A DNA stretch of 64,000 bases from Rhodanobacter sp. Soil772 (GTDB lineage: Bacteria; Pseudomonadota; Gammaproteobacteria; Xanthomonadales; Rhodanobacteraceae). Positions 38,550 through 41,060 of the stretch are shown here, one piece after another (the stretch's first letter is position 1; every line of letters begins with the position of its first letter). The stretch lies in assembly GCF_001428385.1 (NCBI RefSeq), contig NZ_LMSK01000001.1:63355-127354 (forward strand), written 5' to 3'. The notes under the pieces were generated by a model. That model was not told where the DNA came from, did no database searches, and saw only the letters and a program-made list of their open reading frames with translations. A program made the position numbers and the translations under genes.

Positions 38550-39359
38550 TCAATGCCCCGGCTTGCGCCCGGCCATGTGCCGCAGATAGGCCAGCACGGT
38601 GTCGAGATCGGCGTCGGACAGCGCGTGCGTGTCGAACCCCTGCATTTTCGCCTGCGGCCACTGCCGCAGCGACTGCGGATTGCGGATGAAGGCGCGCAAC
38701 AGGTCGGCACGCAGGTATTCGGTGGGGTTGTGCGGAAGGTTCAGATCCGGGCCGAGTTTCGAATCGCCCTGGCCGTTGAGCGTGTGGCAGGCGAAACAGG
38801 TGCGCTGGAAGACGGCGAAACCGCGTTGCACGTCGCCTCCCGCCGGCAGCGAAGGGTCGGGCAGGATCGCCGGGAAGCGTTCGGCCACGCCGCCCAGCTT
38901 GCGGATGCGGGCCAGCTGGTACGGCCATTGTTCCGGGCCCACGCGGGCGGCCTGCGGCCGGGTCCACACGACGTAGAACGGCCCGGCGCTGCCGCGGTTC
39001 TTGTCCAGCGCGGGCCAGGGCCGGGACGGGTCCTCGATCGCCAGCCAGGCTGCGCTGCCTTGCGTGTTCAGCAGCAATGCGGCGGGGATCTCGGCGGCAA
39101 AGCCATCGCCGGCGACGAACTGCAGGTGATCGTCGGGACCGATGCCCTCGAGCAGGGCGGCCAGCGGCACGGCACGGTAGTGCATCGTGCGATGGAACGC
39201 GACATCGCCGGGCACGCTGATCGTGCGCGCGTCGTGGCGCTTGAGTAGAGCTTCGGTGCGATAGGTGATGACGCCATGGCCGAGGTCGACTTTCAGCTCG
39301 GCGGCCGCCGCAGGCAGGGCCAGGCACCACACGAGCAGGTAGATGGCGAACAGCTTCAT
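38550..39359 (-). CDS. Secreted c-type cytochrome with an N-terminal molybdopterin-domain-like region
   Basis: A 269-aa exported protein. After a signal peptide (cleaved after AAA, residue 20) there is a region of about 130 residues (LKVDLGHGVITYRTEALLKR...VPGDVAFHRTMHYRAVPLAALLEGI) resembling the small oxidoreductase molybdopterin-binding-like domain seen in some cytochromes, then a cytochrome c domain with CFACH (Cys188, Cys191, His192) and a likely axial Met239. The partner and reaction are unknown. It is convergent with the aminopeptidase gene and divergent from the sRNA-pncB region. Confidence 0.8.
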   Translation of the reverse strand: MKLFAIYLLVWCLALPAAAAELKVDLGHGVITYRTEALLKRHDARTISVPGDVAFHRTMHYRAVPLAALLEGIGPDDHLQFVAGDGFAAEIPAALLLNTQGSAAWLAIEDPSRPWPALDKNRGSAGPFYVVWTRPQAARVGPEQWPYQLARIRKLGGVAERFPAILPDPSLPAGGDVQRGFAVFQRTCFACHTLNGQGDSKLGPDLNLPHNPTEYLRADLLRAFIRNPQSLRQWPQAKMQGFDTHALSDADLDTVLAYLRHMAGRKPGH

Positions 39360-39504
39360 GGTCGATTCCGCACGGAAGTAAAGAAATTGTAGGTGATGGG
39401 TACGCGAACCGTTCCCGTCCGCTTCGTTGCAGCAAGCCTGTCGGGAAGCTGAACAAAGTTCGACATGCACGTTGAACTCACGCGCTGCCGGCCACACTAA
39501 GCAT

Positions 39505-39631
39505 GTGTATCGCCGTGATGGCGACAGGAAGCGGCGCAATACAGCGTGTCACTGAGGGGCCGGCATTTCCTCCCCTGGATGCCGCCTGACAAACCCCGTC
39601 AGTCCTCCCCTGGCTGATGGGGTTTCTTTTT
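39505..39631 (+). ncRNA. Candidate small RNA with two identical C-rich hairpin loops
   Basis: In a 333-base gap without an ORF, two hairpins display the same 11-nt loop TCCTCCCCTGG (39568-39578 and 39603-39613). The first has stem CGGCAT/ATGCCG (39561-39566, 39579-39584); the second is a 12-bp terminator stem (39591-39602, 39614-39625, one G-T pair) followed by CTTTTT. A small hairpin (TCGCC/GGCGA) lies at 39510-39524. The loop is complementary to GGGGAGG-type ribosome sites. The form recalls the C-rich-loop sRNA sX13 of Xanthomonas; homology is my inference. The 5' end is a guess: no firm promoter was found. It could also be a leader or attenuator of pncB. Confidence 0.6.
39591..39631 (+). 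terminator. Rho-independent terminator of the candidate sRNA
   Basis: Stem AAACCCCGTCAG / CTGATGGGGTTT with one G-T pair, an 11-nt loop, then CTTTTT. No annotated + strand gene ends just before it (the nearest ends at 38502, beyond an opposite-strand gene), so it terminates either the sRNA or a premature pncB leader. Confidence 0.85.
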
Positions 39632-39693
39632 GCGCGAAACAAGCCGCGGTTCGCGTGGATAATGGCCCATCCCGCTCCCCGCCTGGGTTACCG

Positions 39694-40875
39694 ATGATCA
39701 TCGATTCGCTGCTCGACACCGACCTGTACAAGTTCTCGATGATGCAGGTGGTGTTGCACCAGTATCCGGCAGCCCAGGTCGAGTACCGCTTCAAGTGCCG
39801 CACGCCGGGCATCGATCTGGTGCCGTACATCGACGAGATCCGCACCGAGCTGAGAGCCTTGTGTCAGCTGCGTTTCGCACCGGACGAGCTCGACTACCTG
39901 CGCACGTGGCGCTTCATCAAGAGCGACTTCGTGGATTTCCTGGGGCTGTTCCAGCTCAATGAGAAGTACGTGAAGATCGCACCGGCGGCGGCCAACGGCG
40001 AGATCGAGATCCGCATCCGCGGGCCGTGGCTGCATACCATCCTGTTCGAGGTGCCGCTGCTGGCGATCGTCAACGAGGTGTACTTCCGCAACACCAGCGG
40101 CGGCCTCGACCTTGCCGAGGGGCGCCGGCGGTTGCAGGCGAAGATCGAACTGCTGCGCGACACGCCGGACTACGCCGGCTGCAAGATCGCCGACTACGGC
40201 ACGCGCCGGCGCTACTCGCGGATGTGGCAGGAGGAGGTGGTGACCGCGTTGCGCGAGGGATTGGGCGAGCAGCTGGCCGGCACCAGCAACGTGTGGCTGG
40301 CGCGCAAGCTCAACCTGACCCCGCTGGGCACGCTGGCGCACGAATACCTGCAGGCGCACCAGGCGCTGGGCCCGCGCCTGCGCGACTCGCAGGTGGCGGC
40401 ACTGGAGGCGTGGGCGAAGGAGTATCGCGGCGACCTCGGCATCGCGCTGTCGGACGTGTACGGGCTCGACGCGTTCCTGCGCGATTTCGACATGTACTTC
40501 TGCAAGCTGTTCGACGGTACCCGCCACGACTCCGGCGACCCGTTCGCCTGGGGCGAGAAAGTGCTGGCGCACTACGGCGCGAACCGCGTCGACCCGCGCA
40601 GCAAGGTGCTGGTGTTCAGTGACGGGCTGGACATCCCCACGGTGATGCAGCTGTACGCGCACTTCCGCGGCCGCTGCCTGCTGGCGTTCGGCGTGGGCAC
40701 CAACCTCACCAACGACGTGGGCCCCATGCCGCTCAACATCGTGATCAAGATGATCCGCTGCAACGGCCAGCCGGTGGCCAAACTGAGCGACTCGCCGGGC
40801 AAGAACATGTGCGAGGACAAGGCCTACGTGGCGTATCTGCGGCAGGTGTTCGAGATTCCTGCGTCGCAGGGGTGA
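39694..40875 (+). CDS. pncB: Nicotinate phosphoribosyltransferase
   Basis: A 393-aa enzyme of NAD salvage that makes nicotinate mononucleotide from nicotinate and PRPP. It opens with the family signature [20 protein letters not shown] and has the phosphorylatable-His loop region in the middle, the [12 protein letters not shown] block and [15 protein letters not shown] (PRPP site). Length fits E. coli PncB. The start at 39694 has a weak ribosome site (GGGTTACCGATG). It lies 62 bases after the terminator described above, which might therefore be regulatory. It is convergent with metNIQ across a repeat pair. Confidence 0.95.
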
Positions 40876-40912
40876 GGCCCAGGCAGGAGGAGTCAGAAGC
40901 CGCCAAGCTCTG

Positions 40913-40953
40913 CTCCCTCCCCTGCAAAGCAGGGGAGGGTTGGGGAGGGGTTG
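40913..40953 (+). repeat. GC-rich hairpin repeat, copy A (+ orientation)
   Basis: An 11-bp perfect stem CCCTCCCCTGC / GCAGGGGAGGG with loop AAA (40915-40939), followed by TTGGGGAGGGG. It lies between the convergent genes pncB and metQ, together with an inverted copy B. A third copy is at 52890-52925. Placement suggests a bidirectional 3'-end element. Confidence 0.75.
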
Positions 40954-40980
40954 CTCTTCGGTACGAGCAAGATCAAAAGC

Positions 40981-41024
40981 CTCACCCCCTCCTGACCTCC
41001 CCCTGCTTCGCAGGGGGAGGGACC
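40981..41024 (-). repeat. GC-rich hairpin repeat, copy B (inverted)
   Basis: The same repeat as copy A in opposite orientation: stem CCTCCCCCTGC / GCAGGGGGAGG with loop TTC (40996-41020), preceded on this strand by CTCACCCCCTCCTGA. With copy A it forms a facing pair, like a REP/BIME unit, in a convergent gap. Confidence 0.7.
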
Positions 41025-41060
41025 GAGCGTGTAAGAGTCAGGGGAGGGAGCGATGCGTGG

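Follow-up and report, generated by a model that had tools for sequence, protein, structure and literature searches.

The window in this study is the whole analysed stretch of 64,000 nt from Rhodanobacter sp. Soil772. Its plus strand carries, at 39505–39631, a predicted small RNA of ~127 nt, the 5′ end of which is placed from the promoter (± a few nt) and the 3′ end of which is the T run. The gene pncB (39694–40875, +), encoding nicotinate phosphoribosyltransferase (PF04095, 248 bits; PF17767, 125 bits), starts 62 nt past this terminator T run. On the 5′ side the nearest gene is divergent (38550–39359, −; signal peptide and cytochrome c domain, PF00034, 47 bits) and starts at 39359, which confirms the statement of the initial annotation that no plus-strand gene lies directly before the RNA.

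Structure of the RNA

The 140-nt fold has a z-score of −2.65, and equally good folding was found in 1 of 200 shuffles. The RNAalifold consensus of the genus alignment consists of four hairpins, two of them with C-rich loops. Hairpin 1 (TCGCC-GTGAT-GGCGA, 39510–39524, +) has a stem that is invariant in 25/25 genus sequences and 99.4% paired over 36 sequences, and it is the hallmark of this twin C-rich-loop type of RNA. Hairpin 2 (39530–39553, +) is without a C-rich loop; double changes occur in four of its eight pairs in the genus and in all eight in the wider set described below. Hairpin 3 (39557–39587, +) carries C-rich loop 1 at 39568–39578. Hairpin 4 (39591–39631, +) is the terminator and carries C-rich loop 2 at 39603–39613; its stem spans 39591–39625, CTTTTT follows directly, the T tract runs to 39631, and 9 of its 12 pairs show double changes in the genus.

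It had been proposed in the initial annotation that the same loop, TCCTCCCCTGG, sits on two hairpins with starts 35 nt apart, the second being an intrinsic terminator. This is borne out, with exact plus-strand copies of the loop at 39568–39578 and 39603–39613; no third site with at most one mismatch is present within the 64-kb window. The count of two copies is by itself unremarkable (at least two one-mismatch matches were seen in 23 of 100 shuffles), and the striking part of the case is the structure together with its conservation. Pairing between the outer CC and GG of each loop is possible in the consensus fold, which would leave an exposed loop nearer to the hexamer UCCCCU.

Two further conserved stretches lie outside the loops. 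GAGGGG, just 5′ of hairpin 3 (39552–39559), is kept in 25/25 genus sequences and could pair with the RNA's own C-rich loops or with another copy of the RNA. Between hairpins 1 and 2, ACAGGAAG(T/C)G is conserved at 39525–39533; it resembles what we take to be a CsrA-type GGA site.

Conservation and distribution

A blastn-type search recovered the region in all genomes of the genus, 25/25 with the own genome counted, and in 0/16 others from the order. All 25 genus genomes have the same loop 2 on a stem that varies by compensatory changes; loop 1 matches TCCTCCCCTGG exactly in 15 of them and retains TCCCC in every one. In the genus alignment 98.0% of pair cells are paired and 16 of 32 pairs show double changes. 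None of 500 shuffles reaches any of the five measures and slid controls stay at or below 51.5% paired, where the shuffle control leaves relatedness in, the slid control removes it, and the structure itself derives partly from this same genus alignment. Double changes are found in 26 of 32 pairs when the set is widened to 36 matches, drawn from 32 chosen sources with sX13-type loci excluded and aligned by fitting to the model. TCCCCT occurs near the 3′ end in 35/36 of these sequences and the first C-rich loop in 33/36; the three copies without it form a tandem array in one genome (L091). Conserved loops on covarying stems were what the initial annotation had proposed to look for, and the lack of conservation of the two loops, which it had set beforehand as a refutation, did not occur in the relatives. 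Judged from these alignments, it is nearly certain that a conserved structured RNA exists at this locus.

A covariance model of the RNA, R1, matches the window at 39501–39635 with 153.4 bits, the window sequence being part of R1's own alignment. R1 matches were found in 94 of 147 family genomes (21 of 26 genera) and in 67 of 250 genomes of the order. These matches are a mixture of the twin-loop RNA, polA-linked sX13-type RNAs and a few likely chance matches: polA adjoins the RNA in 45 of 70 checked R1 loci, and two matches (L093, L135) lack C-rich loops and are likely due to chance. As some R1 matches look like chance, 94/147 gives an upper limit for the group as a whole. When 84,980 named species genomes were searched with a strict pattern combining hairpin 1 and loop 2, 51 stretches were returned: 27 Rhodanobacter, 12 Dyella, 2 Frateuria, 1 Fulvimonas, 1 Oleiagrimonas, 1 Rhodanobacteraceae bacterium and 7 broadly titled metagenome bins.

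Relation of the RNA to pncB

The initial annotation had also considered a pncB leader in which termination, here at hairpin 4, would be regulated. The gene order agrees with this, as pncB follows on the same strand in 25/25 genus loci, 31/33 family loci and 49/51 named loci (within 600 nt for the named ones; of the two without a pncB call, L323 is close to the end of its stretch and in L322, from Oleiagrimonas, no pncB is seen). Several observations argue the other way. A candidate −10 box for pncB itself, GGATAAT (39657–39663, +), lies past the terminator and is found between the RNA and pncB in 24/25 genus loci, and the gap from the T run to pncB ranges from ~58 to 211 nt. The RNA also persists away from pncB: it stands after a recN-like gene in two relatives (L097, L099) and after purH in another, where there are three tandem copies (L091:1709-2383), and at L077:1749-2939 an ISL3 transposase gene occupies the usual place of pncB directly after an RNA that is intact and scores 100.8 bits. 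No antiterminator or reading frame was seen. More specifically, inspection of the genus alignment by eye revealed no shared frame through hairpin 1, and none could hold there, since hairpin 1 of L010 and L020 carries a 1-nt deletion. The leader interpretation is therefore disfavoured and, in our estimate, highly improbable. As far as comparison of related loci can tell, the structured RNA, its promoter-like elements and its terminator are conserved and are independent of pncB in several relatives, and the window RNA is most probably a free-standing small-RNA gene with its own predicted promoter rather than a leader.

Three tandem R1-like copies each were observed in two other genera (G065, G119; L091:1709-2383 and L092:1883-2607).

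Promoter

A promoter of the sigma-E/ECF type is predicted 5′ of the RNA at 39472–39500 (+), with the −35 box TTGAACTC at 39472–39479 and the −10 box CACTAA at 39495–39500. The arrangement TTGAAC-N17-CACTAA precedes the RNA in 25/25 genus loci. A script found GAAC exactly 27 nt before the −10 end in 48/51 named loci; among the exceptions, L308 fits if its −10 is read by eye, L312 has a distance of 28 and L326 has GAAG. More divergent copies have GGAACTT..ATCTAA (L104, L138) or GGGAACC..GTCCAA (L097). The sX13 orthologues of the genus have CAACTTT followed at the same distance by CACTAA, ATCTAA or TTCAAA; the strict pattern is present in 14 of 27 rows, with L032 left out of the script and L026–L028 not included, and the other rows, which have another first −35 base or a −10 such as TTCAAA, are similar by eye. 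The genome encodes an RpoE homologue (TIGR02939, 320.8 bits vs 236.15), and rpoE itself is preceded by TGAACTC-N15-GTCTGA, 104 to 77 nt before its ATG (L110:1401-1428, ATG at 1505). Sigma-E-like promoters stand before both the window RNA and the polA-linked RNA, and a similar one before rpoE. Published sigma-E boxes are GGAACTTTT and GTCAAA (PMC1804206). The −10 box CACTAA is without the first T of the sigma-E TCTAA/TCAAA. The conserved promoter motifs strongly suggest transcription by a sigma-E/ECF-type holoenzyme.

Other sigma factors were considered and rejected. A simple scan revealed no sigma-70 promoter; although TTGAAC and the 17-nt spacing would be suitable for this factor, CACTAA makes a poor −10. 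Letters resembling CTTGAA and CC.CA of sigma-32 are present in some copies, and a few of these (L092) look like good sigma-32 promoters too. Against sigma-32, L095–L098 and L104 retain, by eye, just GAAC and TC/CAA.

A conserved upstream element, CCTGTCG..AGCTGAAC, lies at 39437–39454 (+), and CTGAA[CT] is found 5′ of the promoter in 25/25 genus loci. Among the 51 named loci there are 39 occurrences of a second GAAC 49–51 nt before the −10 end. The element GCTGAAC usually stands 22–24 nt before the −35 GAAC and ~33 nt before it in L078, L083, L085 and L086. This larger spacing is one helical turn more, which suggests a possible activator site.

Relation to sX13 and other known RNAs

Membership in a known RNA family was rejected, as the Rfam scan of the window gave no family at its own cut-off. 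In a relaxed scan the best hit by both bits and E-value is sX13 (RF02232; 29.4 bits vs a cut-off of 50, E 6.6e-4), followed by 6C and ar14, both far under their cut-offs. ErsA (RF01719, Pseudomon-1) was rejected as well, with 13.9 bits vs a cut-off of 50 and E 3.1. The ErsA gene lies beside polA.

The sX13 model has a second and better match in the same genome (G000:C4:213580-213694, 37.6 bits, still below 50). This sX13-like RNA lies ~135 nt past the end of polA on the same strand (L090:2081-2195; polA end at 2331; PF00476, 533 bits). According to the sX13 study, every published sX13 gene is found downstream of polA (PMC3771888), and by position the polA-linked RNA is therefore the sX13 orthologue and the window RNA something else. 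That the window RNA is sX13 itself is not supported in view of the score below cut-off, the two C-rich loops, the pncB locus and the separate RNA at polA.

The two RNAs have much in common. sX13 also has C-rich apical loops with UCCCC cores, one of them on the terminator hairpin, is encoded by a short intergenic gene and is proposed to pair with G-rich motifs at ribosome sites (PMC3771888). They differ in that sX13 has three stem-loops, all C-rich, and lies at polA, whereas the window RNA has four hairpins, two of them C-rich, with a 5′ hairpin of its own, and lies at pncB. Could the window RNA be a copy that diverged from sX13 yet still does what the polA-linked RNA does, a plain paralogue kept for dosage? 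The R1 and sX13 models cross-match and both RNAs have promoters with the same spacing. The different 5′ hairpin, two rather than three C-rich loops and the different locus speak against such a copy, and so does the frequency of GGGG at receptor sites, 19/33 in the own genome with the RNA vs 1/30 in a genome with sX13 only (see below). We consider a dosage paralogue improbable. What the sequences allow is that the window RNA and sX13 may share ancestry or may have converged, the one being a relative or a mimic of the other.

sX13 represses mRNAs with 4G motifs and does not need Hfq, and it accumulates at high salt, at 37 °C and in minimal medium (PMC3771888). Such accumulation conditions would fit sigma-E control rather than show it.

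The alpha-r14 or cuckoo RNAs (NfeR1; RF02344, ar14) likewise expose an unpaired anti-Shine-Dalgarno-like motif on several differing stems (PMC10746234). In these alpha-proteobacterial RNAs CCUCCUCCC is found on three hairpins, in the window RNA UCCUCCCCUGG on two, and the ar14 model gives 24.2 bits on the window RNA, under its cut-off of 58.8.

In another family (f3), polymerase-I-linked RNAs with a GTGA-loop 5′ hairpin and three C-rich loops were observed (L109, L122). Their 5′ hairpin is like that of the twin-loop RNA and their three C-rich loops are like those of sX13; they are possible intermediates between the two.

Predicted targets

The pattern GGGGAGG-N4-12-ATG occurs at 43 sites in the own genome vs 6 for the reversed pattern. 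As a target list these sites were rejected because many of the 30 of 43 that were read are short frames, probably not genes. The sites are mostly away from receptor genes; two genes on the list looked like TonB receptors, and the test of the receptor class follows from this, the class having been chosen after seeing the list. GGGG is present at −30 to −1 in 19/30 receptor genes (PF07715) and in 19/235 baseline genes (p 1.8e-11), in 5/30 response-regulator genes (p 2.4e-4 for receptors vs these) and in 5/51 baseline genes with a clear Shine-Dalgarno sequence. In an open scan of 5-mers before receptor starts the most enriched is GGGGA (18/30 vs 11/235 baseline genes, p 4.9e-13), and this 5-mer is complementary to UCCCC, the core of the loops. 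A GGGG with its first base between −9 and −17 is present in 16 of the 19 receptor genes listed. The receptor genes are paralogues and their counts are not independent; 30 of 33 receptor loci entered the class and 5-mer tests and all 33 the genome comparison. Response regulators were represented by 30 of 49, several of which are domains inside larger proteins. A fixed rule assigned the start codons, and gene calling for the baseline yielded only 236 genes in 424 kb. Secretion as such does not appear to be the cause, since GGGG was found in 0/13 baseline genes with a signal-peptide-like start, a small sample. Loop duplex energy was rejected as a test of targets for being unspecific: of 20 permuted loops, one told receptor genes from baseline genes better than the real loop did, and a second one about equally well.

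We compared GGGG at receptor starts in five genomes, two of them close relatives. In genomes with the RNA it is common, 19/33 in the own genome and 15/30 in G111 (R1 111.2 bits). It is rarer in G063, of the same family and with no R1 match (4/17), in G036, which has sX13 only (1/30), and in G027, with no match to either model (5/30). The p values vs the own genome are 0.62 for G111, 0.036 for G063, 2.0e-6 for G036 and 0.0016 for G027. In G036 sX13 scores 116.7 bits, and an R1 match of 36.3 bits falls on the same place. With starts picked by signal peptide the counts are 18/33, 15/30, 3/17, 2/30 and 4/30 for the own genome, G111, G063, G036 and G027, respectively. The receptors used were 30 of 43 in G111, 17 of 17 in G063, 30 of 55 in G036 and 30 of 30 in G027.

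The initial annotation had proposed a C-rich-loop regulator of GGGGAGG-like ribosome sites. This stands in a modified form: there is a conserved small-RNA gene, and GGGGA is enriched at the ribosome sites of one gene class. Pairing of the window RNA through its C-rich loops is very likely. The sequence evidence strongly suggests that GGGGA at the ribosome sites of TonB-dependent receptors marks the main target class, and receptors as the main targets are likely. A C-rich-loop RNA whose main targets are other genes, either a broad set or another one, like that of sX13, would leave GGGGA before receptors as a translation-enhancing ribosome site only. In the sX13 study 4G motifs are translational enhancers in Xanthomonas and sX13 regulates 63 genes (PMC3771888), and most of the 43 GGGGAGG sites (vs 6 reversed) lie outside receptor genes, which is in line with such a broader role. 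Under it one would not expect receptor-start GGGG to be common in genomes with the RNA and rarer in those without it, nor the top 5-mer of an open scan to be the exact complement of the loop. This broader role is unlikely in our view, though it deserves more weight than a leader or a dosage paralogue.

In Xanthomonas the TonB receptor XCV3572 is lower, not higher, in the sX13 mutant (PMC3771888). The fall fits the rarity of GGGG at receptor starts in G036 and gives no support for C-rich RNAs repressing receptors. As XCV3572 is the one TonB receptor tabled for sX13, it argues against extending receptor repression to sX13. Part of receptor regulation may also fall to the polA-linked, sX13-like RNA of the own genome.

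Proposed function

Based on the sequence evidence, we favour the interpretation that the window encodes a trans-acting, four-hairpin envelope-stress RNA of ~127 nt with GGGGA-bearing receptors as its main target class, the translation of which it would repress; on balance we consider this probable. Within it sigma-E control of the RNA is likely, and we infer repression rather than activation. Envelope stress would free sigma-E, upon which the twin-loop RNA would be transcribed and its level would rise. The two loops would make kissing contacts with the GGGGA that receptor mRNAs carry at the Shine-Dalgarno position. Blocked ribosome entry would in turn lower receptor translation and outer-membrane protein synthesis, and the RNA would probably tune the cell surface under stress.

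Known small RNAs offer precedents. MicA and RybB of enterics have a sigma-E-type promoter and outer-membrane protein mRNAs as targets (PMC1804206, PMC8103513). Both features are predicted for the window RNA as well; it differs in its structure and in the predicted binding through C-rich loops at GGGGA. RybB regulation needs Hfq (PMC1804206). In Pseudomonas, the sigma-E homologue sigma-22 drives the small RNA ErsA, which lowers the porin OprD (PMC5819304), and the likeness, a sigma-E-type small RNA lowering an outer-membrane protein, is again a predicted one for the window RNA. The twin-loop RNA would do the job of MicA and RybB with the C-rich-loop chemistry of sX13.

A further-reaching and more tentative interpretation, which we regard as possible but somewhat doubtful, is that the outer-membrane branch of the envelope-stress response has been built anew in Rhodanobacteraceae. 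A twin-loop RNA under sigma-E control would then silence much of the TonB-receptor set at once, and the GGGGA docking motif would have co-evolved with it, appearing and disappearing at receptor sites with the RNA.

A literature search on Rhodanobacter small RNAs, on an sRNA upstream of pncB and on C-rich sRNAs and TonB in Xanthomonas found no earlier report. C-rich-loop RNAs as a kind are known; the family, the locus, the architecture and the predicted target class are apparently new, and the RNA is a candidate new Rfam family with strong covariation. If the proposed function is true, one short RNA ties envelope stress to nutrient uptake by TonB receptors throughout a bacterial family associated with soil and plants, and C-rich-loop RNAs, which occur in Xanthomonas, rhizobia and Staphylococcus, can replace MicA and RybB in their role. 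Dozens of target genes would share one docking motif readable from the genome, and the regulon would be testable in non-pathogens.

C/G-rich inverted repeats (CCCTCCCCTGCAAAGCAGGGGAGGG and similar) containing GGGGAGG lie 3′ of pncB at 40910–41045. If transcribed, they could be decoys for C-rich-loop RNAs.
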